From Rhizophagus irregularis (lineage: Eukaryota; Glomeromycota; Glomeromycetes; Glomerales; Glomeraceae), in contig NC_089460.1 of the NCBI RefSeq assembly GCF_026210795.1, forward strand, positions 186,001-250,000: a stretch of 64,000 nt of DNA, in the 5' to 3' direction. Positions within the stretch are counted from its first letter, which is position 1, and each line of letters starts with the position of its first letter. This document shows, one piece after another, positions 3,173 to 46,898 of the stretch. The notes under the pieces were generated by a model. That model was given only the letters and a program-made list of their open reading frames with translations. It made no database searches and was not told the DNA's origin. Both the position numbers and the translations under genes were made by a program.

Positions 3173-6100
3173 TTAAATAAAATACATCGTATTATCTGAA
3201 AATAAATAAAGGCATTAGTCAAATAATAATATATAATTAAAATGTAACTTATTATTATTACCTTTAGCTAAACTTTCTTTAACTTCTTTCAATACAAATT
3301 CTGTTTCTCCACGTGGCTGTTGTTCAAGATGTAATCTATAAATAACTATTATATTATTATGATATTTAATTACGAATTAATGGTAATGAAATTAACTTAC
3401 CGTGCACGTTTAGCCGCCAAATGTGCATAATCTACAAAAAAAAAATAATACAAATAAATTAGTTAATTGAATTATTTGAATTTATATTATTGGTACTTAC
3501 AAGCTGCCGGTGCAATAGAAACAGAACGGGTAGCACTGAAATATGATATAAATCCACAATCAATAGTTATTATAAATTATAAGACCAACCAATTAACATT
3601 AATGATCATACCGTTGATAATTATAGCAAAGTTTATGTGTCAAGTTTTGCAGTATATCAGATGTAAATTTATTTTCATCAAAAAGAACATGATCTTAAAA
3701 TATAAGAAATCAGAGTTAGAAGACAATAATTTTTTACAAAGGAATAATTACAAAAAACATACAATGAGCTGGACGAGAGGTCCCATGTAAACTTGTGTGT
3801 GATTGTAAAACTAAAAAACATAAAATGTAAGTCACAGGGATAAATTATTAAAACTAATGATAAATAAAGAAATACTCACAAAAATCAAATAAATATGGAT
3901 GTGTTATTTTACGGTCTACAACAGTACCAGCTACACAATTTCCTTTACTGTATGAAATATAAGAAATGTTACATTTTCATTTTATTGATTTCGTATTAAA
4001 TTCAATTACCTATCAGTATCGTTTTTTTGTTGTGGATAAAATCTTGTGTGATGTCTTTTGCCTACAATCACAAAAGTAATAGGAGGATTATATGTTTCGT
4101 CAATTTCTTTGCAAGCATCTAATATTATATTATATTAAAAAAATTATATAAGAATTTATTGTCAAAAAAAAGAACTTATATTAATATGTACCTTTGATTT
4201 TTTCAAGTTCATGTGTTAAAACCATTTCAAATTGACTCTCAGATACACCATCACGATACATGATAATTCGCAGAGGTAAAATATTGTTTTTTGAACGATA
4301 ATCTATTAAAATTTCCTTAACCATACCACCCATATTTTCAATCTTTTCTTGCCTTGTTCTTTGACTTTCAAGTTTAGAGATAAACCTTCCGCCTTGACGA
4401 TCAAGGGAACCAACAACTGCACAGATTGAAGGCATATCTGTAAAATAGAAATAATTTTAAGAATAATCGATAAAATTTTAATAAATGAGTAATATAAAAG
4501 GAATTGGAATTGTGTACTTGAAGGCCCAGCACGTCCACCAGTAGGGTGAGTAACATCTGCACCAAGCAGCATAACTGGTTCTTTTGTTAACTGAGGAATT
4601 TCTGTTTCCTCGAGAGACTGATTGGTTCCACCAAGCTTCAAATTTATTTTAAGCGCTACATTGGCACAATATTGTTTACTTGTTTTATACACCTTATCAA
4701 GTTGTACACACTGTGAAGGAACACCAATAATAGTGTCAGTGGTATATTTTATGGCCCGATAACGCTTTTCATCATCATCCGGGAGAACAAAAAGCATAAG
4801 TTGTAAATCATTCAAAAGATGATTTCTCGCATTATTATACTCTGCCTCAATCATGCGTTGATATGTTTGTGCATCACCATGTGGCTTGACACAATTGATT
4901 CTAGGATTAGTCTCTGCAATATCCTTATTTGTTAAAAAAAGGTTAAATTGACAATAATTATAATATAATATAAATTTTAATAATTATTACCATTCCCTGT
5001 TGTCGGCTAGTATTGACAAGCTCTTTTACAAATTGCTTCGCCTGGTTGAATTTTCGCTGATCAATAAATGCAACTACAACCCAATAGCGAAGAGTATTTC
5101 CACTTCGTACAAATTTACGATCTCTCAGATTCCATCCACCTTCTTTAGGTCTTACAGTTCCACCCGCCTTGGAAGTGGAATGATATGAAATTTGTGGTGG
5201 CTTCAAAACACGAGCTTTATAAAAGAGTAACAAAAATTGAATATGACAATTTACTATTAATTATGTTAACAAATACAAACAAATCACTTACCAGGAATAA
5301 TCGCCATTTGCTCATCAACTTCCATCCCAAAGCTGCTTAATTTAAAGTCTTTTTCAAATTGTAAAACATCTTGTACACCCTCATTAATTCGATGTACATT
5401 TTCTTGAGGTCGTAAAGCGGTATGTTTTATCATTGCTCCTCTCTGAGCACTGGTTAATTTTGCAACAGGAAATCGTTGTCCCTAAACGTATAAAATACAA
5501 ATGTTAGAATTGTCATAAAAATGGGTATATTTTTTATATGTAAAAAGAATGACCTCAATAACATTGCAAAGTTCTATTGGAACTTTATCATTTCTGCGAC
5601 CTTCAAGTTCAACAAGATGTACATGACGTAAAGTGATATTATAACGATGTTGGAAGTATGTGTAAATATCAACTTTTTCACCAGAATCTGGCATATCAAT
5701 TTTAATATCATAGGCATTATTCGGGCAAAGCCTTTTGATTTTTAATCTTGTATTCACTTGAGGACGATGAACAGGTCTAAATTGTAAACCACGTATAAGT
5801 TCAGTCACTCTATCATGCTGATTTTGACTAAAACGTTCTGGGATGCTGGAATTAAGGTATTTCGGAATCAAATTTGAAAGAATACCAGGTTCGTAAAATA
5901 CAGTATAAGTTGTATTGACATTAACAAAATAGCTATCTAGTAAAAGATAATCAAGTAAGCATATAAATTTACAGTAATATTAAGATATTATAAATGAGAA
6001 TACCTTGTCCAGGTCTCACACTTTCAAACCATCCCATCCATAGCTCAACACCACCTCCTAATGATTTGCGAGTTGAAGGCAAATATGTGGATTCGCCAAA

Positions 6101-7078
6101 TTGTGTATATTTCATTGATGGAATATGATGTATGAGAGCATTTAATCCTCTTATTCCAACTATAAAAATTATATTGAAAGAAAAAAAATTAAAAATAACA
6201 AATAAATTGATAAATTTACATATAAAATTAAAATAAATAAATAAAATAATAATAAAATCACCTAGATCAAAATATTCCCATTTCATTTCTTTACCCTCAA
6301 GACATTTCTTTAATTCGCCTAAGTCAACTCTGTCAAGTTTCTGAACTTCAACTTTATATTCCATTGGGTTCCCCCTTGAATCTTGATCATCTTTTAAACT
6401 AACCTAAGATGCATTAATGTTTAACATCAGCCAACAAAATATAAATAAAAGATTAATAAATATGTGTTACACCTCACCGATGTATTTCCGGAATCTGGAC
6501 TATTTAATCTCAATAAATCGGTAGAGTAAAGAGTTGTATTTCCTATTTTTTTTTATAATCAAAATATTAGTAATTAACTTTCAGCGGTGAATGATATAAT
6601 AAATACGTACCATCAAATACTACACCAATTCCTTTGAACCAACCATTACGTTCTTGTTTTTCTAGTTGTTGGAATACCATGCGCTGTACATGCACAGGAA
6701 GCTGCTTTTGTTGCTTTGGTTGCTTTGGGGCGCGTCTTCTTTGATTACCTTCTCCCTCGGGTCTTTGTTGAATTATAAGCTTCATAGATATATCATATTT
6801 TTCAAGGTATGGCTTATTTGCTATCTAATGAAATCAAAATTATTAAATTCAATACTGATTATAATTTAGGCAAGCGAAATAAATACCAATACCTTTTTAA
6901 CTTCAAAATAATTCGTAAGAACGTGAGTGTGGCGACCGGTTTTTCCATAGTCTGGCCGTTTAGCCATATTTTTTATGGCCTTTTCTCTTAATGCTTCTTG
7001 CTGTTCGTCTCGTATTTGCGGCTCTTTCTTTTCTTCACCCTTACGCTGTTCCACCTCCTTACGACCGTTTTTAGCCAT
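3173..7078 (-). CDS. Argonaute protein with complete DEDH catalytic tetrad (18 exons)
   Basis: Guide-RNA-directed silencing nuclease. Exons (high to low): 7078-6893, 6824-6611, 6542-6478, 6403-6262, 6159-6004, 5936-5554, 5481-5292, 5214-4991, 4923-4518, 4437-4192, 4118-4010, 3947-3880, 3810-3763, 3693-3612, 3535-3501, 3431-3401, 3335-3262, 3195-3173. All junctions are GT/AG and all phases close, giving 893 aa. A charged tail (1-45) is followed by the N domain (VLTNYFEVKK), linker, PAZ (about 260-385, ending IELCNVIEGQRF), MID and PIWI. Catalytic residues by alignment to animal Argonautes: D643 (DVTHP), E686 (RQEKI), D718 (YRDGVSE), H855 (YYAHLAA), so slicer activity is expected. The C-terminus TMYFI matches the family. 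An in-frame ATG at 7117 would add 13 residues. Glomeromycotina are known for expanded Argonaute families. Confidence 0.95.
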
Positions 7079-28945: not shown

Positions 28946-29317
28946 ATGGCAGCATTAAACTTAAACGCAAATCTTCCAGTATACATTCAATGGCCCGATG
29001 ACGCTGCTTTGACCTTAATTCAGCGTCGTTGGGCCTATCAGCCCTTATTCACCACAACGAGGTTACATGACCAAAACCAATTATGGCGTGGAATTGCTCG
29101 TGATATACGAAACAACCACATATTCAGGCCAACTAGAAAACAATGTAGAGAGAAATGGAATGCGCTAAAGTCAAGGTACGAGAATTTAGAGAGATTAATA
29201 AACAGAAATCCTGAAGGATATCCCACTTGTACCCTGACTTTGCATAACGAGAGATTCCACCAGGAACTCTCTGACGAGTTTTGGAGAGTGGAGCATAAGT
29301 ATTTGTTATTTAACTGA
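28946..29317 (+). CDS. Small Myb/SANT-like (trihelix-type) DNA-binding protein
   Basis: A 123-codon frame from a good ATG. Residues about 15-95 follow the SANT/Myb-like plan: IQWPDDAALTLIQRRWAY (helix 1 with W), LWRGIARDIRNN (helix 2), TRKQCREKWNALKSRYENL (recognition helix with the conserved KW..L...Y), then EGYPTCTL and FHQELSDEFWRVE. Such proteins are frequent in transposons and expanded gene families of these fungi. A spliced form is possible: GT at about 29297 and AG near 29369 would replace the last codons by a short tail. The downstream frame VRAARRNRMDRNTYEYRERR looks coding-like but cannot be joined in phase with a visible donor. It lies next to a broken transposase (30.0-33.6 kb) and could be its accessory ORF. 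Function unknown. Confidence 0.65.
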   Translation: MAALNLNANLPVYIQWPDDAALTLIQRRWAYQPLFTTTRLHDQNQLWRGIARDIRNNHIFRPTRKQCREKWNALKSRYENLERLINRNPEGYPTCTLTLHNERFHQELSDEFWRVEHKYLLFN

Positions 29318-29420
29318 TTTTTTCATTAATTCATTGCATTTATATTAATACTTGCTTTGTTTTAAGCATTAGTCCGGGCCGCCCGGAGAAATAGGATGGA
29401 TCGTAATACATACGAGTATA

Positions 29421-29480
29421 GAGAGCGCAGGCGCTCTCGCTCCCGATCCCCCTACTACCACCACGAGAGCGCAGGCGCTC
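29421..29480. repeat. Paired GC-rich palindromes GAGAGCGC-AG-GCGCTC(TC)
   Basis: A perfect 18-bp palindrome at 29421-29438 and a 16-bp near-copy at 29465-29480 lie in a short GC-rich island just after the SANT-like gene. Either could fold into a stable hairpin or serve as a dimeric binding site. Confidence 0.7.
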
Positions 29481-29492
29481 CCACCGACGTCA

Positions 29493-29715
29493 TTGATTTT
29501 TTATTTTTTATTTTATTATTTTAATATATTTTATTTTATTTTATTATTATGTTTTATTTTATTTTAATATTATGTTTTATTTTATTTTATTATTATATGT
29601 TTTATTTTATTATATGTTTTATTTTATTTAATTATTATTATGTTTATATTATTATATGTTTTATTTTATTTTATTATTATGTTTTATATTATTATATATT
29701 TTATTTTATTTTCAT
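29493..29715. repeat. TTTTA-type microsatellite-like tract
   Basis: About 220 bp made almost only of TTTTA, TTTTATT and ATTATTATG words. Simple sequence with no coding content. Confidence 0.85.
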
Positions 29716-30019
29716 TCAATAAATGACTATTTTCGATAATATTATTTGTCATACCAATTGTCATTAACCATATACAGCCGGTATAATTGACCCTAAATTT
29801 TGTGTAGCCAAATCGGCAGTAATTTAACCGAATTGATTACTTAATTGCATTTTTTTTTTTTGCCGACACACTAATAGTATTTAATAAATTTAGTTCTAAT
29901 TGAATTTATAAAATTCTAATTAAATTTGAATTATTTTAAATTGTTATAAAGATGAGAAGACGATATAGTCACAACAAGCCAATAGAGCCAATTTGAATTC
30001 AAAATCAGTTTTCTTACAG

Positions 30020-33000
30020 CAAACCTAATGAGACAACAGATTCTGACGAGAGAGTGGCAATTTGTTCGCCTGTACGTTCACCTGATAATGATAACGATGA
30101 CATAGACTTTCAGTATGATCATAAAGATGATTTAAGTTTTCAAGACATTAATGATGACGATAATGCATATGGATCAATTAATCCTCAAAACTACAATGAT
30201 GAGATGATATTTTCGCAAGATAATGTCAATTCATCTGATACTGAAGAGGAAGAAGAAAGTGATAACGAATACAATTATGAAGAGGAGGAAGAGGAGGAAG
30301 ATAATAATGAAAACAATGACGAAGAGGAGGAGGATGAAGGTAATAATGATGATAATAATAATCAAGTGGAAGAGGAACGTAATAACGATGAAGAGGAACG
30401 TAATTACGATGAAGAGGAACGTAATAACGAAGAGAAAGAAATACATCAAATCGTTGAAGCGTTAGATGAAGACAAGATACCGTTCTGCAATGGTCAATTT
30501 GCACCGTACTTTGATAATTATACAACTACGGCATTATTTTGCTGGCTTCAGAAACATAATGTTTCTACGAAAGCATATAAAGATCTTGTCGATATCATTC
30601 ACAATTCTCAATTTGAACCTACCCATGTAGTAAAAAATATCCGAAGATTCCAATCATGGAGAAAACGTCTTCCTCTCCTACCAATAATAACAAAGTCTAT
30701 TAAAATTTCACCAAAAAAAACTCCATCAACCTCACGAGGATCAAAACTTTCGTATCAACTCTCAATTAGTGAAATTATATGGCGTGTTCTTAATAATCCG
30801 ATGCTAATGAAGCATATGTATTTTGGACCCGACATTAATTCTGAAGAAAAATCAGAATTTTGGCATGGAAATTTATGGGGGGAATCCCCACTTTTTGGAC
30901 AACACGAAATATTAATATCAGAAGGTTATAAATTAATACACTTTGATACAATTATAATTTATTATCATTGATAATATTTATTAAAGTTATTTATTTTTAA
31001 TAAATAGTATTGTACCGATCTGGTGATTTTGTTTACTATCATGATGATAATGGTCAAAAAAACTTGGAAGATTAAGATCAATTTTAAAAAATCATGATGG
31101 ATATTATCAGTTACGAATTCAAAAAATTTTGGAATATAGTGATTTACCCGGAAATTTAAAAGGGTTACCAAGACAACGTCGTTCTATTACCGGTGAAGTA
31201 TGGTTACAAGACGAACGATTTTTAATTATAATGACTTCTCAAATTTTAGAAAAAGTAACTATATTGATTTACGCTTCAACATCAAAATATTCCTGATGGT
31301 TCATTGCGGATTAGTGAAATAATTTATAAATGTAATGACCGTTGGCACGTTCGTAATGTAAAGCTTTCATACCTACATCCATCTGATTACATTTCTATTA
31401 GAAATCCACCATCATCATCTATGCCAATCTATAAGCTGTTTTTAGATCTTTATTATGATGATTTTGGTACATTTAGAAATGTATACCATTCTCTAGGTGG
31501 TGTTTATGTACAGTTTGGAAATATGCCAGCACATCAAAGAAAGCTAATAAAGAACCATTTTGTTATTGGGTTTATCCCATTTGGAGGAAAATTTGACGAA
31601 TTTATGATACCATTCATTTCAGAAATGAAGGAATTAGAGAAAGGAAAGGTGATGACTGTCCAAGGACAAGATGCATGGATAATTGCTGGTTTAGGCGTTG
31701 TTACGGCAGATTTACCTCAAGGTAACGATATGACAGGAGTACTTAAGGTATTTTTTCAACTTAGTTAATAATATAATAATATAATTTTATGACAACTATT
31801 AAAATTTTTTAAAAAATAAATTTAGACATAATGCAAATAAGGGTTGTCGTACTTGTAAAACTACTAAAGAATCATTGAATGCTCACAATCAGGATATCGT
31901 AACAACATTACGTTATCATCATATTACAGACGAAGAAATCTTAAAAATTTCTCATGAGACTATAATGTCGAAGAGATCAACTTTGTACGGAATATGGTTT
32001 ACGATCATTACCTAGTATTTTAGATAAATTAAAAAGGGAAAGACATTTACAGACGCCGCAGGATATTTATCATGCGACTGCAGGAAAAGATTGGGCGGCT
32101 ACTAAAATTAACTTGTGAATTATTTTCACGAGAAGGAGAAGATAATTTTATCGAAATTTGGAAAAATTTTGAAATCCCAAAAAGATGGTCTCGCTTACCA
32201 AATCCGATTACTCACTACAATAGTTTTATGATGTCGGATTTACTTAGATTAGCTATGATTATGCCATTTTTGTTAAACCAGTTTTTAAAAGAATCAAGTA
32301 TCAAACGTAATGAAACAGCCATGATTCAACAAAGAATTAATGCATTTTGAGTTAGTTCAGTTCCAAAAATTATTATATCTTGTTGGATACATGTTGCAAA
32401 AACTATGAAAGCGGTTTTTAACAAGAAATTTACATCAGATAGCTATGAGGAATTGCAACAATGTCTTGAAGAAGAGTTTTCAATCCTTCCAAAGGTATAG
32501 TTACAAATTTGATATTGAAATGTGGAATAATTTCAAATAATTAACAATATTTTACTTTTTATAGGTTTTTGTAAATTTTGTTAATTTACCAAACATACAC
32601 GTTAATATGCATCTTTTGATGCATGCTAAAACCTTTGGAACACTTATTAATACCCAAGTTGGTATAAAAGAAATGGTCCATCGTATTTTTAAGGGGATGG
32701 TACCAAAAACTAATTGCAAAAACATAGATTTAGATTTATTAAAGCGTTACAATACTTTATTTGCAATTCGACATTTAGCAGATGGTGGTATTGATCCAAG
32801 ATTTAATAGATCTTGTACTGGATTTACAAATTCAAATTTTGGACAATTATTTTTAAATTGGTATGTTACAGAAGATAAATATTCAACTGAAGCAACTGAA
32901 CAAGTTCAAGACGATGATGATGATACAAAAAGTAAGTATTTTATTGCATATAATAGTACATGTTTGATATTTATATTTACTAATCTTTTAATTTAGTTAT

Positions 33001-33568
33001 ATCTCCAGTAAACTTTATTTCCAATATTTCATTAAAAAAAAGAATGCCAAAGCAGGAACGTGATAAACTTCTTTTAACTTTACATAATTTTAAAACTGAA
33101 TTGTTTTTATCTTATGTGGATATGAAGTTTGAGGCGGCACTTATAAACTCTTCAATTAGTTGGTACAAATTTGCATCATATATGATTGAAGAAGAAAATG
33201 GTATCCTTTCAAAAGTTCACCTACATCTCGATGATTTTATCACAATTTATGAAGAAGATCATGAAGAATCTTATGCAATAATCAAAGGTATCTTTCAACA
33301 TAAGGGTAACAACAACAAATATTATGCATTTATTGTTGTAGATTGGTTTGAAGATACTATGGTTGAACATTCAGTATTAAAATGTCCACTTTACCGTCTC
33401 CAAGCAACAGGAGATAAATGGAGACGTATTTTTCCAATTACTGTAATAGATAATGTTCAAAAAGTACATTTTATTCATAATTGTAATTCAGAAAGGTGCC
33501 AACTACCAAATCATGATACTACAAATAGAATTTGGATAAAAAATAATTTTTATTTTACAGCCATATAA
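30020..33568 (+). pseudogene. Broken CACTA/Tnp2-like DDE transposase
   Basis: A long transposase-like gene split over all three plus frames. The N-terminus is acidic (Glu/Asn tracts at about 30235-30440) and then reads FCNGQFAPYFDNYTTTALFCW. Core pieces SEFWHGNLWGESPLFGQ, DFVYYHDDNGQ, GVYVQFGNMPAHQRKLIK, DAWIIAGLGVVTADLPQGND, NKGCRTC and NVNMHLLMHAKTFG correspond to the central and C-terminal parts of Tnp2/CACTA (including fungal Plavaka-like) transposases. A C-terminal SYAIIKGIFQHKG...YYAFIVVDWF region follows. Lesions: frameshifts at an A-run (31056-31062), near 31275, near 31985 and near 32085, plus an in-frame TGA at 32348-32350. Introns are likely around 30946-31008, 31749-31825, 32500-32563 and 32933-32998. 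CACTA-type ends were not found. Superfamily placement is by motif resemblance. Confidence 0.75.
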
Positions 33569-35699: not shown

Positions 35700-37875
35700 C
35701 TTCGAATTTTTACTTTTTTTAACGAAATATTTTACTAATGTTTTCATTTTTTCTTTTTTAGATTCAAGACGCCCATTTAAAAGGCTCGGGTGGACTTCTG
35801 AAGTACAGAAACTCCAAAGATTCGTAAGTACAAATTCTTTGGAGTTTTTTTTTTATATTTTTAATATGAATGGTGTCACCCACGTCTGCCACCCGTGAGT
35901 AAACACAATCTCTTATTTCACTTTATTTCTCATTATTTCGCTTGGTTTAGATTTCTATTATTCTCTTGATTTCTACTATTCTCTTAACTTCTCGCTTTCT
36001 TTCTCATGTATTCGTAATATTTATTCTTTCAAATACTACCACTCATTCATAATATTCCCAAAATATTATTCTGTATGTAATATTTATTCTTTCAAATATT
36101 ACCACTTTATTTCTTATAAATTGCGAGAGTTCTCCTAACTTCTTACATATTTCATACAATGAAACGAGAATAACTTCCTTTACTTTACTTTTCTGGACTT
36201 AATAATATAATATTAATTAATTCTCAAGCGTATAATGAGCATATTCAAGATAACTTTTAATAATTAATATTTATTTTATTAAATTTGAGTCAAAAACTGA
36301 CTGCGGAATTCCTAACGAATCCCACCTATATTTATACATTTTTAAGAAAATTATTTCTACTATTTCTAACTTTTCTACTAATAAAAATTTAAGAATAATA
36401 AGAAAATAAAGATGTATTATCGTATGACTATCTCGTGACTAAACTAAACTAAACTATAAATATTATTTTATCGGTTAATTATTTATCCGTTGGTTAATTA
36501 TTTATCCTTGTTCCATTCGGTCTTTTATTCATCCGCTCACGTGATTATCCTGATTTCTCGGGTTACAACGGTTACTAACTATTTTTTTTTACTTTTTTTT
36601 AGATTCAGCCGTTCAGGTGAACTTCCAAAGTATGGAAAAACCAAGTTTCGTAAATATAAAACTTGGTTTATTTTTTTTTTATTTTTTAATTTAATATGAA
36701 CGGTTACTAACTGTTCTTTTTTTACTTTTTTTTTTAGGTTCAGCCATTTAGGTAGGCATTTGAAGAACGGAAAAGATTCTTTAGTATCAAAAATTTTTTT
36801 TTTTTAACATTATAGCTTGTCCTACAGAGAAATGCGATCAAGACGCTATGGTCTATATTAGTAACTTTTGATGAACATTGTACTGAAACTCTGATTTGGG
36901 AGTTAATGCTTCTGGCAAAGGACTTGTTGGTAATTTTCACTTTTTGCTCATTTTTATTTTGTTATAAGTTCAGCATTACTAATCAGAAAATATATTTTAA
37001 CTTTAAATCAATATTCATTTACCAAAAGATTGCATAATTCAAACACATCAAGATTGAGTTTTGTGAGTTTACGAACGAAGATGATGCAGATTAAAATAAT
37101 AAATCAAATCAAGTTGTATGGGAAGCCTATTCGTGTTAATAAAGTAGGCAGTTTGTTTTTATTATTTGTTGTGTAGCATATTCGAATATCGATTTATTTT
37201 ACTTTAGATTGCATGAGATCCCGATACTGGCAATTAGTAAAAGATATGAATTTATTTCATATATTTTTCAGTTTTTTAACTGAAATTTCTTTTTATTTTT
37301 TATTTTAACTTTTTCAGTTCTTTAAACTGAAACTTTTTTTATTATTTTCTTTTTTTTTCAGTTTTTTTAAACTGAAACCTTTTTTAATTTTCTTTTTTTT
37401 TTATTCTTTTTCAGTTTTTTAACTGAAATTTCTTTTTATTTCTTTTTTTTATATAAATACTTTATTTTTTAGATACACTTTATTTGTAGAATGCTGAATT
37501 CAAACGAACGAGACAGCAGGACAGGTAAATGGGGTGGGTGGTATGTATTAATTAAGGAATGTTTCTAAAATTCTTTCTTCTTTTTGTAGCACTGGACTCT
37601 TGGAATAGATTTAGCTTGATGAGGTAAAGTAGGAGTGATGTTTTTTTTAAATTTATTTTTAAGAAATGTTCTAACGTTTCTTTTCTTTTACTATAGAAAC
37701 GCTGGCTTTTTAGTGTTGAAATGAACGAATTAGACTTTATACTGACAAGGTAAAGGGACTTAGAGGAGGACAGAAAGTGTTTATTTTTAATTTTTCTAAA
37801 TTTTTCTATTTTTAGAATATTTTACGGCATTAAGATTGCGACATTAAGACATTACGGCAGAATTACGATATTACG
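35700..37875 (+). repeat. Intron-like hairpin module array, part 1
   Basis: Repeated modules with a short inverted repeat (GAACGGTTAC...AACTGTTC; TTTCAGTTTTTTAACTGAAA; AGAAATGTTCTAACGTTTCTT), a long poly-T tract and TAG, followed by a short exon-like stretch and a GTAAG-like donor. Acceptor-like AGs lie at 35761, 36602, 36736, 37472, 37590, 37695 and 37816. Three of them are followed by RTTCA(G/A) (35762, 36603, 36737). Donor-like GTAAGTA lies at 35824. An L1 LTR (35874-36566) splits one module, and the array stops at the element beginning at 37876. The short exon-like pieces do not assemble into a recognisable protein. Confidence 0.55.
35874..36566 (-). repeat. Solo LTR, family L1, copy 2 (minus orientation)
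   Basis: Read on the minus strand it starts TGTAACCCGAG and ends GGGTGACA, with AAAAATGTATAAATATAGG (TATA box) and GGAATTCCGCAGTC matching copy 1 at 692-1282. The shared stretch GATAAATAATTAACC...TTTAGTTTAGT is also present. Flanks are ATGG (35870-35873) and ACGG (36567-36570), and the empty site AATATGAACGGTTACTAACTG is visible in the neighbouring module near 36700. Confidence 0.65.
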
Positions 37876-41490: not shown

Positions 41491-41829
41491 ATTTAAACCA
41501 TATATTTTAATAAATAAACTACTTGTTTCTTTCGGTCTATTTATTATCTGGTTAAAGTTAAACACGAAATTATATTAGACATGTTTAGACTTCTTTTATC
41601 TCTAGAAGTTTGGATATTTTTACTAACTTACGAGGTACAACTAACTTTGAATAGTAGTTGATTTGCCATAATACAGTATACTAAATCGGAATTTATTTTT
41701 ATTTATTAAACATCCCTTTTTACTGTATTTTCTTTTTCTTGAAAAATTTTTTATACCTTGGACGGACGGAAATCAACAAGACATTTTGAAGGTATATATA
41801 CTTCAAAATATTTTTCTTTTTGTTTTTTT
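41491..41829. other. Short unassigned stretch between copy A and the module array
   Basis: No gene. TTGGACGGACGGAAATC (about 41758-41775) is a small GC-richer patch. The first hairpin of the intron-like array follows. Confidence 0.4.
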
Positions 41830-43620
41830 TTTAACGAAACATTTATTAACGTTTCATTTCTTTTTCTTTTTAGATTCAATTTCTTTTGGGAGGCTCCTTA
41901 GACTGACATATACTTCAAATATACTTTGAAGTATCTTTTTCATTTTTTCAATGAAATGAATGGTAAGTTTCGTGTTGCATAATTTTAAAAAAAAATTTTT
42001 TCTTGAGAAACGTTATTCTGACATTTTTCTCTTTTTTTTGTAGGTTCTATTGAGAAGCTTTAAAATGGCAAACTTCTAATGGTAAGTTTTGCAACGCGTT
42101 ACGAAACTTAATTTTTTTTTAATTTTTTTTTATAAAAAACGTTATATTAATGTTTCTTTTTTTTTGTAGGTTCAAGTGTTTCAGCCTTGTAAAATTTGAA
42201 ATGATGGTGAGTTTCGTGATGTTTTATTTCATTGTGAAACTTAAAAAAAAATTTTTTTCTTTGAGAAACGTTATATTAATGTTTTTCTCTTTTTTTGTAG
42301 ATTTAAGTGTTTCAGCTCGGTACTTCAAAATAAAACGGTAAGTTTTACAACGAAATGTTATGAAACAATATTTTTTTTTATTCTTTTTTTTTGTAAGAAA
42401 CGTTATATAACATTTCTTTTTTTTCTTTGTAGGTACTCTCTGAATATTGGATTTCAGTTAGATCTCAAAGTTTCGTTTTAAAACTTCAATTCTTTTATTT
42501 TTTTTTTTAAAGAAATGTTACTAATGTTTCTTTATTTATTTTTGTAAACTCCCTTCAGCTTTTGATACTGGACTGGGATGCTAAGAGAGGGTAAGTTTTG
42601 TAATGAATTTTTCATTATGAAACTTTTACAATATTTTTTTATTTTTCAAAGAACGTTTCTAACATTCTTTTTATTTTTTTTTTGTAGAATCTGTAGGCTT
42701 GACCGCTCCGGTACTCTAAGGTCAAAATGGTAAGTTTCATAATAATTTTCATTACAAAACTTTATTTTTTTTATTAAGAAATGTTTTAATGTTTCTTTTT
42801 CTTTTTTTTTGTAGGATTTGTTGAACTCAGTATTTAAATTCAGTAAGTTTTTTTGTCAAAACTAAATATTTTTTTTTCAATAAATCAGATTTAAATATAT
42901 GGGGCTGTTAAAGAAACGTATTAACGTTCTTTTTTTCAATTTTTTTAGGTTATTGGACTCCTAAGAACTTGGAAGTCTTGGTATAATATATGGGTGGCGT
43001 ATGACGTTTGATTGTATTAAAGAAACGTACTAACATTTCTTTTTTCATTTTCTTAGATTACCGGACTTGGAAGAATCTGGTAAAGTATATGGGAGGAGTG
43101 TATGGCGTTAATTGTATTAAAGAAACGTATTAACGTTTCTTTTTTTCATTTTTTTAGGTTACTGGACTCCTAGGAATTTGGAAGAATCTGGTAAAATATA
43201 TGGTAGAAATGTATAGCATTGATGTTTAATTATGTTAAAGAAACGTATTAACATTTCTTTTTTTGTTTTTTAGATTACCGAACTCCTAGGAATTTGGAAG
43301 AACCTGGACTTAAGTATATGGGATAATGCGGTGTATGGTATTTAATTGTTTTAAAGAAACGTATTAACGTTTTTTTCTTTTTTAGTAGGAACTCCAGATG
43401 AGATTACGAACTGAACTTTGGATAAAAGGTAAATAGAAGGGTTTTTCTATTTTTTTTTTGTAACATTTTTAACGTTACTTTTTTCATTTTCTTGTAGGTA
43501 ATTCGCTCAAGATGAAATTGATACAAAGTACCAGAACTTATTTTTTTAATATTTTTTCGTTAAGAACGTTTACTAAATGTTCTTTTTTTTATAGAGAATG
43601 AAATAATGTTTCACTCACAA
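41830..43620 (+). repeat. Intron-like hairpin module array, part 2 (about 14 modules)
   Basis: Each 90-150 bp module contains a near-palindrome of the type AAAGAAACGTATTAACGTTT, 15-25 T/C-rich bases and TAG. A short exon-like stretch follows, mostly 25-50 nt, and then GGTAAGTTT or GGTAAARTAT. Acceptor AG positions: 41873, 42043, 42169, 42300, 42432, 42687, 42814, 42948, 43058, 43157, 43273, 43385, 43497, 43594. Donor GT positions include 41963, 42082, 42207, 42338, 42591, 42730 and 42843. Later exon-like pieces are similar to each other (TACTGGACTCCTAGGAATTT) and share one open frame, YWTPRNLEES-like. No known protein results. It could be transcribed and spliced, or be a satellite that evolved splice-like ends. 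Confidence 0.6.
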
Positions 43621-44099
43621 TTTTACCAAGTCAAAATCAACTTAATCCACCACAATCTAATATCCATCTTCTGCTTAATTCATTTGGTATTAGTAGGCAA
43701 TAGTTCGAAAGAGTTGGCATAAAAACTTTAGAAAAAATAGTTGTTTGTTGGAATTGAACCAACTGGAATAATATTCCAAACCATTAACAATATAATGTAG
43801 ATAGATAGAATAGGATAAATTAACAAATATAATTTTTAAAAATATAATAGTAAAATAAATATATATATATGTTATTATGTTAAATAAATAAATAAATAAA
43901 TAATATATAGTATATATAAATGAATAAATAATAAGTTTCAGATTTCAATATAGCAAATATATATCTAATATTATAAATAGTTCAGAGAAATATCAGATTG
44001 CTGAAATTCTCCCAATATTCTTACTGTTATGTTCTAACCTGAAAATCACATGACTTATACCTAATCTGCGCTGAGAACCAGTCACAAATCGGATGGATC

Positions 44100-44315
44100 G
44101 ATTACACACGTCAAATGATCAAAAATAGGCAAAAAAAATGGCGCAAATCGCATAAACTATTCGCAAATTTGTATAAACTATTTACAAATAGTATAGGTTA
44201 ATTCGTAAATTGCCAAAAACAGCCAAGAATAGCCAAGAATAGCCAAGAATAGCCACTGCTTTTCGCGCCATTTTTTTTGCCGATTTTTAGCATTTCGACC
44301 TGTGTTAGCTGCCAT
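44100..44315. repeat. Inverted-repeat hairpin element around GGCGC
   Basis: A left arm ACACACGTCAAATGATC...GGCAAAAAAAATGGCGC and a right arm GCGCCATTTTTTTTGCC...ACCTGTGT are inverted, with a spacer holding three tandem AGCCAAGAAT units (44222-44256). Probably a small foldback MITE. Target duplication not resolved. Confidence 0.5.
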
Positions 44316-44699
44316 TCAGGTTAAAATCGAAAACATATAATAGGGCTATTAGGTATATAAAATTTACTCAGTAGCCCTTCACTTGATAAAAAATATTGGA
44401 AATTCAATAAAAGAATCTATAATTATATATTTGAAACAAAAACAAATTAGATGTTAAGATAAAAATTTTATTAGAAAAGTATTATAAAATATACTAAAAG
44501 TTATTTCAAAAATTTTAACATTTAGTATTAGAAGTAAAAGTTGAAAGTTAAAACTTTTTTAATAAGATTACAAAAAGATTTTAAGATAACTCTTACCAAG
44601 ATACAAATATTTATAACCAATATTTTAATTCAATTCATTTTAGTATTTAAAAAATTAATATAGAAATCAAGATACGAACAAGTTATACAGGTTATAAAA

Positions 44700-45745: not shown

Positions 45746-46898
45746 TAGAGCTCTGAATGGGTTGGGTCAGATCGGGTAATTGACTTGACCTGACCCAAGG
45801 CAAGTCATGAATTTGGTGACCCGACCTGAATATTACGGGTCAGTTCGGATACCCAACCCAACCCATTGACCCGATATATTTTGGGTCAAAAAAACGTTTC
45901 TTTTACAATTATTTTATGAAAAAGTACGTTTTGGCACTTTTTATTACGCCAAAATGTATTTTTTTTGTTTCTTCTAATGAAAAACGTCAGGTTTGACGTT
46001 TTTTAATTATAGAAACTTTTTTTTATTTCTTTTAATGAAAAACGTCAAACCCAACATTTTTTAATTGAAGAAATATTTTTTTGTTTCTTTTAATGAAAAA
46101 ACGTTAAACCCGACTTTTTTAATTGAAGAAACATTTTTTTGTTTCATTTAATGAAAAAATGTTAAACCTGATGTTTTTAAATTAAAGAAACATTTTTTTT
46201 GTTTCTTTTAATGAAAAAACATTAAACCTGACGTTTTTTAATTAAAGAAACATTTTTTTTTATTTCTTTTAATGAAAAAACGTCAAATCCAACATTTTTT
46301 AATTAAAAAAACATTTTTTTGTTTCTTTTAATAAAAAACGTCAGGTTCAACGTTTTTAATAAAAGAAACATTTTTTTTTGTTTCTTTTAATGAAAAAACG
46401 GCAAACCTGATGTTTTTTAATTGAAGAAATATTTTTTTTGTTTCTTTTAATAAAAAAACGTCAAACCCGATGTTTTTTAATTAAAGAAACATTTTTTTTG
46501 TTTCTTTTAATGAAAAAATGTCAAACCCGACATTTTTTAATTAAAGAAACATTTTTTTTATTTCTTTTAATAAAAGACGTCAGGTTCGACGTTTTTTAAT
46601 AAAAAAACATTTTTTTTGTTTCTTTAATCGAACCTGACATTTTTAATAAAAAAAGACGTTTTTGTAATTATTTTTAATGAAAAAACGTCAGGTTCAGGTC
46701 AGTTTGGCATTTTATATATATATAAAATGCTGAAACATCTTATTTTTGACCAAAATATGTCATGTCAATGGGTCAGGTCGGGTACCTGACTGTGACTGAT
46801 CTGACCTGAGATTGGGTCATTAAATCTACTATCCGACCTGAATTTTTCGGGTCAACCCGTCGGGTCACCTGATCCGTTGGGTCAAATTCGGAGCTCTA
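45746..46898. mobile_element. hAT-like element with GGGTCGGGTC subterminal repeats (copy B)
   Basis: Ends TAGAGCTCTGAATGGGTTGG and, inward from the right, TAGAGCTCCGAATTTGACCC. Flanks GGGTAAAT and GTGTAATT match at 6 of 8 positions if one extra T is counted as terminal, so the duplication is decayed. Subterminal regions consist of GGGTC/GACCC words. The core is a 12-unit palindromic tandem array (45960-46680). No ORF. Confidence 0.7.
45960..46680. repeat. Twelve tandem copies of a 59-bp double palindrome
   Basis: Each unit has an outer inverted pair GTTTCTTTTAAT...ATTAAAGAAAC and an inner pair AAAACGTCA...TGACGTTTT (variants AAACCTGAC, GGTTCGACG). Unit starts are near 45967, 46026, 46083, 46141, 46201, 46262, 46321, 46380, 46440, 46500, 46560 and 46619. 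The stem is conserved while loop bases vary, so the array would fold into a row of hairpins. Confidence 0.75.

Follow-up and report, generated by a model that had tools for sequence, protein, structure and literature searches.

One-way arrays of intron-like modules with branch-point hairpins in an apparently non-autonomous CACTA-type transposon of Rhizophagus irregularis

The question raised by the locus described here is what kind of repeat keeps splice-donor-like and splice-acceptor-like sites in order over a whole array. The window, i.e. the entire stretch of Rhizophagus irregularis DNA analyzed (64,000 nucleotides; contig NC_089460.1, positions 186,001 to 250,000), contains such an array at 41830-43620. 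A first-pass annotation, made from the letters alone, described tandem intron-like modules in fixed order and considered a spliced non-coding locus, introner-like elements, a satellite derived from one intron, and a decayed repeat protein. The explanation that is considered here more probable than not is that a non-autonomous CACTA-type transposon carries a one-way array of U2-type mini-introns and non-coding micro-exons, which are predicted to be spliced.

The array does not stand alone; it belongs to a larger repeat spanning 41757-44386. In a search of the genome (146.7 Mb, 32 contigs), the array DNA (1791 bases) matches at least 17 other places over at least 1,480 bases with 82-86% identity and one further place (C22) in two pieces, among at least 87 matches in total; these counts, like those for four other arrays given below, comprise pieces from the 40 best candidates and are therefore lower bounds. 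Eight long copies fetched with their flanks (L003-L010) are 97.8-99.7% identical to one another. The element to which they belong is 3.5 kb long, dispersed in R. irregularis, and has the ends CACTGG...CCAGTG; a young copy lies, for example, at C15:399931-403464. The eight copies end sharply in CACTGGTCAAATGATG on the 5′ and CATTCGACCAGTG on the 3′ side, beyond which their sequences are unrelated, and all eight harbor CACTR-type terminal inverted repeats, CACTGGTCAAATGATGAAA... and ...CATTCGACCAGTG. A 3-bp target duplication borders five of these eight short copies, three being without, and all of four further elements (L018-L021).

The end motif occurs 82 times in the genome, compared with a single match for the reversed control, and forms 32 inward-facing pairs less than 12 kb apart, of which 14 span 3.0-3.8 kb and another 14 span 6.38-6.50 kb. 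Three members of this long class of 6.44 kb were fetched (L018, L019, and L020, the last with 7.7 kb between its ends through an insert). They show the ends and the 3-bp duplications of the short class, and no internal DNA similarity between the two classes was detected. Pieces of L018 give two weak matches that stay under the curated cut-off, to Transposase_21 at E 2.8e-4 and to Transpos_assoc at E 0.0044. Since ends and duplications are common to both classes and the long class gives these weak transposase matches, the 3.5 kb carrier of the array looks like a non-autonomous CACTA-type transposon. It thereby resembles the CACTA/CMC-EnSpm elements of R. irregularis including Plavaka (CACTG ends, 3-bp duplications, a long class with weak transposase matches) and differs from its own long class by the array cargo, which the long class lacks. 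Elsewhere in the window, open frames of transposon-like look are located at 28946-33568; for three of them, a Pfam search brought no convincing match, and we take these frames to resemble Plavaka. Frames on the minus strand at 4306-6364 presumably resemble an Argonaute gene, as judged by motifs. A recent expansion of CMC elements is described in PMC8647823, and PMC11075540 places Plavaka in CACTA/CMC/EnSpm and reports it to be prevalent in this strain.

According to blastn against the eight long copies and inspection of its ends, the copy in the window (41757-44386, plus strand) is a remnant of this element. It lacks the 5′ end together with roughly the first 1.1 kb, and at the 3′ side it stops near 44386 with the last terminal bases degraded, so that both outer ends are lost. 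Between two homologous blocks (end at 44102, restart at 44307) lies an extra stretch of 204 bp (44103-44306), which none of the eight other copies in the comparison has and which is probably a later insertion within the element. Relative to the majority of the eight long copies, the window copy differs at 208 of 2378 aligned sites; its identity varies with the method, being 82-86%, or 85-87% by blastn, or the value given by these differing sites. Differences affect 82 of 235 CpG sites versus 126 of 2143 sites elsewhere, and 147 of the 208 changes are G>A or C>T, a pattern expected for methylated CpG. Most transposon loci of this fungus show high CG methylation as described in PMC8647823. The window copy is an old, dead member of the element that decayed mainly at CpG, and its substitutions relative to the eight long copies give no sign of selection after insertion.

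The modules of the array are consecutive, ordered, and confined to the plus strand. Within 41757-43620, this strand yields 11 introns with a basic intron caller, whose criteria are a donor, an acceptor behind a pyrimidine tract, and 60-125 nt in length; this is in line with the tandem order described in the first-pass annotation. Modules of the form GTAAGT...TAG lie at 41963-42043, 42082-42169, 42338-42432, and 42591-42687, one of the form GTGAGT...TAG at 42207-42300, and one of the form GTATAT...TAG at 41792-41873. The module at 42730-42814 shows a weakened donor-half hairpin and a branch-point hairpin when folded, that at 42981-43056 has the hairpin AAAGAAACGTACTAACATTTCTTT and the branch-point motif TACTAAC, and that at 43080-43157 forms a perfect 10-bp hairpin upon folding (AAAGAAACGTATTAACGTTTCTTT). 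They are followed by modules at 43191-43273 and at 43429-43497, the latter with the hairpin GTAACATTTTTAACGTTAC, a compensated stem variant. The modules at 41963-42043 through 42591-42687 and these last two were also located by mapping from copy L004: out of 15 L004 introns mapped to the window copy, 14 keep the GT, 14 keep the AG, and 13 keep both. The cargo of L004 comprises 17-18 modules in a single orientation, filling the interior of the element; the fourteen modules first counted are about right for the truncated window copy. Inspection of L004 by eye gives 18 acceptors after a pyrimidine tract, each with a preceding palindrome, some of them imperfect. Among the intron calls over ten arrays described below, two abutting ones in L004 leave an exon length of 0, one donor being misplaced.

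Outside the array, the basic caller finds five introns on each strand of the window. Three of the plus-strand calls (37525-37589, 37624-37696, and 37750-37815) make up a second array of the same module type, short and decayed, on the plus strand at 37525-37815. In the region 37264-37815, the three decayed modules, one with the hairpin AAGAAATGTTCTAACGTTTCTT, come after tandem TTTTTCAGTTTTTTAAACTGAAA hairpins. A separate array of 60-bp hairpins at 45958-46625 contains eleven copies (AAAAAACGTC/GACGTTTTTT) with poly-T present and the donor/acceptor grammar absent, and the basic caller finds no intron in it.

A stricter caller that also requires the branch-point motif gives five introns on the plus strand of the window copy and none on the minus strand (shuffle mean 0.01); in the eight long copies, it gives 11-14 and none, respectively (shuffle means 0.00-0.05). 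Other arrays yield 0-5 such introns (0 or 1 in L022, L023, L024, L025, and L026), mainly owing to pyrimidine tracts that are shorter or interrupted by A. A looser caller, for which any hairpin in front of the acceptor suffices, separates the strands less well, with seven plus-strand versus four minus-strand calls in the window copy and 0-6 minus-strand calls per locus. Over ten arrays chosen from many, 116 introns are called on the plus and one on the minus strand. Among the 115 unique introns kept, 64 begin with GTAAGT and 112 end with TAG, forms that are partly set by the caller, and their median length is 80 nt compared with 84 nt in host introns. As array modules are tandem copies, these counts are not independent. 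High between-array identity at donor and acceptor is moreover circular, since their forms are caller criteria, which does not apply to the strand asymmetry, the branch-point motif, and the hairpins. The fixed register of donor and acceptor sites, which the first-pass annotation had proposed, recurs in many arrays, contrary to the randomly varying positions that it had named as its refutation.

In most modules, the hairpin frames a predicted splicing signal. Its loop and 3′ arm hold TACTAAC, TTCTAAC, TATTAAC, or TTCTGAC, motifs which we take to fit the branch-point consensus. The U2 gene of the host holds GTGTAGTA, which is matched by the hairpin motif, and a U1 gene of the host begins with ATACTTACCTG, complementary to CAGGTAAGT. 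A perfect stem of at least 7 bp is found in the last 62 nt of 85 of the 115 array introns (74%), compared with 8% of 345 shuffles and none of 16 host introns; the latter are inferred introns of TCP1, a single gene family, that a script placed between exon matches by choosing the best frame-keeping GT-AG pair. The branch-point motif extends over loop and 3′ arm in 73 of the 85 stem-bearing introns, a count that has no control, and [CT]T[AG]AC occurs near the 3′ end of 84/115 array introns versus 0/16 host introns. The 16 host introns are without the motif, which weighs against its predicted use by the host as a branch point. A further stem of this kind, in the donor half (first 45 nt), is present in 23% of the array introns, in 5% of the shuffles, and in 0/16 host introns; such stems occur in 27-60% of the introns of L004, L017, L035, L039, and L041 and in none of the other five arrays. 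A hairpin that pairs the donor bases from +3 on could hinder rather than help U1 and slow splicing down. Taken together, the GT donor fits U1, the AG follows a pyrimidine tract, the branch point matches U2, and the length is normal: the modules are complete signatures of U2-type mini-introns, whose splicing is predicted from the sequence.

The first reading of the modules as introns thus holds for their architecture; it missed that they appear to be transposon cargo, that the hairpin frames a branch-point motif, and that the donor half of some modules forms a hairpin as well. The hairpin before the acceptor, also part of that reading, is a property of the modules but has decayed in the window copy, where only 3 of the 11 called introns keep a perfect stem of at least 7 bp. 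One intron compared in both copies has a folding z of -0.83 in the window and -5.61 in L004; two folded window introns show z values of -0.8 and -1.7. By contrast, z ranges from -4.6 to -6.0 in four introns selected from L004 and L039, all of which adopt both expected hairpins.

Stem pairing survives changes in both arms, i.e. the hairpins are compensated. In 34 distinct branch-point-side hairpins, pairing amounts to 0.91 for own and 0.42 for swapped arms, and in 14 distinct donor-side hairpins to 0.97 and 0.44, respectively. As this test aligned the arms to the loop, mixing register and sequence, counts anchored at a core are cleaner. The first pair outside the GAAAC/GTTTC core (n=50) is A-T in 30, C-G in 6, G-C in 5, T-A in 2, and other in 7 cases (3 G-T); the second is A-T in 44/50 and G-C in 2/50, and the third and fourth are mostly unpaired. 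In donor-half hairpins anchored at AAACTT (n=22), which itself fixes the pairs +4 to +8, position +11 is C-G in 10, A-T in 9, and T-A in 2 hairpins, and position +13 is A-T in 11 and G-C in 10. Pairing over longer distances is seen in L039 (G000:C23:56800-61600), where a pyrimidine-rich stretch in front of the array (975-1215) can pair with a purine-rich one within it (2690-2890); the duplex reaches -189 kcal/mol, compared with a mean of -143 and a best value of -157 in 100 shuffles, and several introns could thus be enclosed by one large stem of the transcript.

These pairs bear on the most serious alternative, a fossil satellite: a captured intron-exon piece would have been multiplied in tandem and spread, with its signals inherited and homogenized by gene conversion and nothing spliced now. 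That the arrays arose by tandem duplication is clear from their locally uniform units, and the array at 45958-46625 demonstrates that a hairpin-rich tandem array exists without intron grammar. Nevertheless, stems still pair through two-sided changes, nearly every signal is intact in the young copies, and branch-point motif and hairpins are kept between arrays although exon-like pieces and intron middles are near chance identity. A fossil satellite is hence considered unlikely, albeit deserving of serious attention.

The comparison between arrays also shows that the module is reused. Exon-like ends and mid-introns are identical at 0.28-0.31 of positions between arrays (chance 0.26-0.27), and a 7-nt window at the loop/arm junction at 0.37 (0.29 by composition), this low value being due to shifts of motif and stem register. 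The exon-like pieces measure 39-40 nt in L011 and L012 and mostly 32 nt in L022 and L025, and those of L035, L037, L039, L041, and L042 are different again. Searches with four other arrays gave between at least 65 and at least 265 matching pieces each, so arrays are widespread in the genome. Elements of 1.4-1.6 kb with the ends TAAGGTTGC...GCAACCTTA (L011-L016) carry the same intron modules; inspected by eye, their 8-bp duplications are perfect in three of six, have one mismatch in one, and are lacking in two. We take TAAGG-type ends and 8-bp duplications to be hAT hallmarks. In both features these elements resemble non-autonomous hAT elements, the superfamily being assigned from ends and duplications alone, and they differ from them by the intron-module array. 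One module type is therefore present in at least two kinds of transposons, CACTA-type and hAT-like. L022 and L024 begin with CACCGGTCAAATGATG, and L023 has CACTGGTCGAATGA upstream; the opposite ends of these three elements were not found. Beside the first array of L024, a second one with GAAACGTTAGAATGTTTC-type hairpins lies on the opposite strand (~3669-4340) and is 97% identical to the array of L037. One exact hairpin pattern gave no match in viral contigs, and a tRNA-like stretch seen by eye near the 3′ part of L004 (~5806-5860) gave no ARAGORN match.

Plant CACTA elements have subterminal repeats, and the modules might accordingly be internal transposase-binding sites whose likeness to introns is secondary. 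The end motif and the duplications suit this superfamily, known for such repeats, but the array occupies the interior in one orientation, the module is also found in hAT-like elements with unrelated ends, and one hairpin pattern is absent from all three long-class loci with the same ends (L018-L020) while occurring eight times in L004 and six times in L039. This makes binding sites an extremely improbable explanation.

If the micro-exons encoded a decayed or fast-evolving repeat protein, as had been suggested from a shared frame in the window copy, their lengths should tell. L012 contains only 39-nt pieces with the frame kept in 5/5; in L011, which belongs to the same family, pieces of both 39 and 40 nt occur. 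Against a protein, some arrays have uniform 32-nt pieces, and exon-like lengths are mixed or 2 mod 3 in eight of nine arrays, L012 being the sole exception (L035, whose run is too short, was left out). The nearly identical L004 and L010 even differ by 11 nt in one exon-like piece. After splicing in silico, open stretches exceed the shuffle mean in 8/9 arrays and are thus somewhat long; they pass the 95% mark in three (L025, 116 vs 114; L037, 96 vs 79; L042, 73 vs 69) and stay under it in six, and the shuffles ignore that repeated units are open or closed together. For this last reason the arrays are read as non-coding, a reading that L037 fits least. The protein suggestion is mostly unsupported and is regarded as very unlikely. 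SP7-like tandem-repeat effectors were considered and rejected, as their genes have, according to PMC11333574, a single conserved intron ahead of the first repeat and not micro-exons.

The suggestion of introner-like copies sitting in introns of real genes found no support in two small samples: the hairpin is found in 0/16 inferred TCP1 introns, and the isolated exact hairpin matches that were opened, among the 100 of 189 matches listed, all lie in arrays (4/4; L024, L035, L036, and L038). A further reading is that the hairpins feed a small-RNA pathway, or that the array allows host transcripts to be freed of a transposon that has landed in a gene. The hairpins are stable, but their stems, at 7-14 bp, make short substrates for dicing. 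Open frames longer than 100 aa span five of eight empty sites joined in silico (L004, L005, L006, L009, and L010), a count for which no control was run; the longest frame, however, runs with the element at two of these sites and against it at three, i.e. without orientation bias, and that across L006 looks, in our estimation, like a reverse transcriptase and not a host gene. In this fungus, young transposon loci are a particular source of small RNAs according to PMC8647823, a point in favor of a reading that is nonetheless highly improbable on the whole.

For the preferred explanation, an intron array carried and spliced as transposon cargo, the following course is proposed. The array would be transcribed in the plus direction, and the host spliceosome would remove the mini-introns. 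The hairpins would shorten and fix the distances from donor to branch point and from branch point to acceptor. Arrays may enlarge by tandem duplication and be swapped between elements. The benefit is the weakest step and a doubtful conjecture: heavy splicing might make the transcript mRNA-like or shed structured parts, thereby lowering small-RNA silencing. In Cryptococcus, stalled spliceosomes reportedly feed RNAi. It is for this reason, and because transposons of R. irregularis are under small-RNA and methylation control (PMC8647823), that escape from silencing is the first choice among possible benefits. On a more general level, these elements of an arbuscular mycorrhizal fungus might form a new class of selfish DNA, spanning at least two superfamilies, with swappable arrays of mini-introns that look engineered, the branch point and often the donor in a hairpin, and a dependence on host splicing of a multiply spliced non-coding RNA for expression, silencing escape, or spread; this generalization is tentative and, at present, less probable than not.

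We know of no earlier case of transposons multiplying introns within themselves, and no description of intron-array transposons was found in the open-licence literature. Maize Spm/Ds elements are spliced as introns and thus likewise exploit host splicing, as is predicted here; in maize, the element is spliced out of a host transcript that it disrupts, whereas the elements of R. irregularis harbor a long internal array of complete introns. Introners are similar in being mobile and intron-like, often with DNA-transposon signatures (PMC9860276), but become introns of host genes, whereas the modules described here are in tandem inside transposons and were present in none of the host introns inspected. 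The main text of this survey names neither 'Rhizophagus' nor 'Glomero', and 'intron', 'splic', and 'hairpin' occur 0 times in the main texts of PMC8647823 and PMC11075540. Repeated, sequence-similar fungal introns are also known as stwintrons and symmetrical introns of Hypoxylaceae (PMC8469720); stwintrons are nested introns, unlike the tandem arrays with branch-point hairpins in R. irregularis.

That most modules place a predicted splicing signal within a hairpin may mean that these transposons use the RNA splicing of their host. If spliced, the arrays would amount to naturally occurring collections of near-ideal mini-introns whose hairpins are compensated, in which the effect of structure on branch-point choice could be tested directly. 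New introns could then originate from them, and they might offer genomic parasites a way of facing RNA-based silencing.
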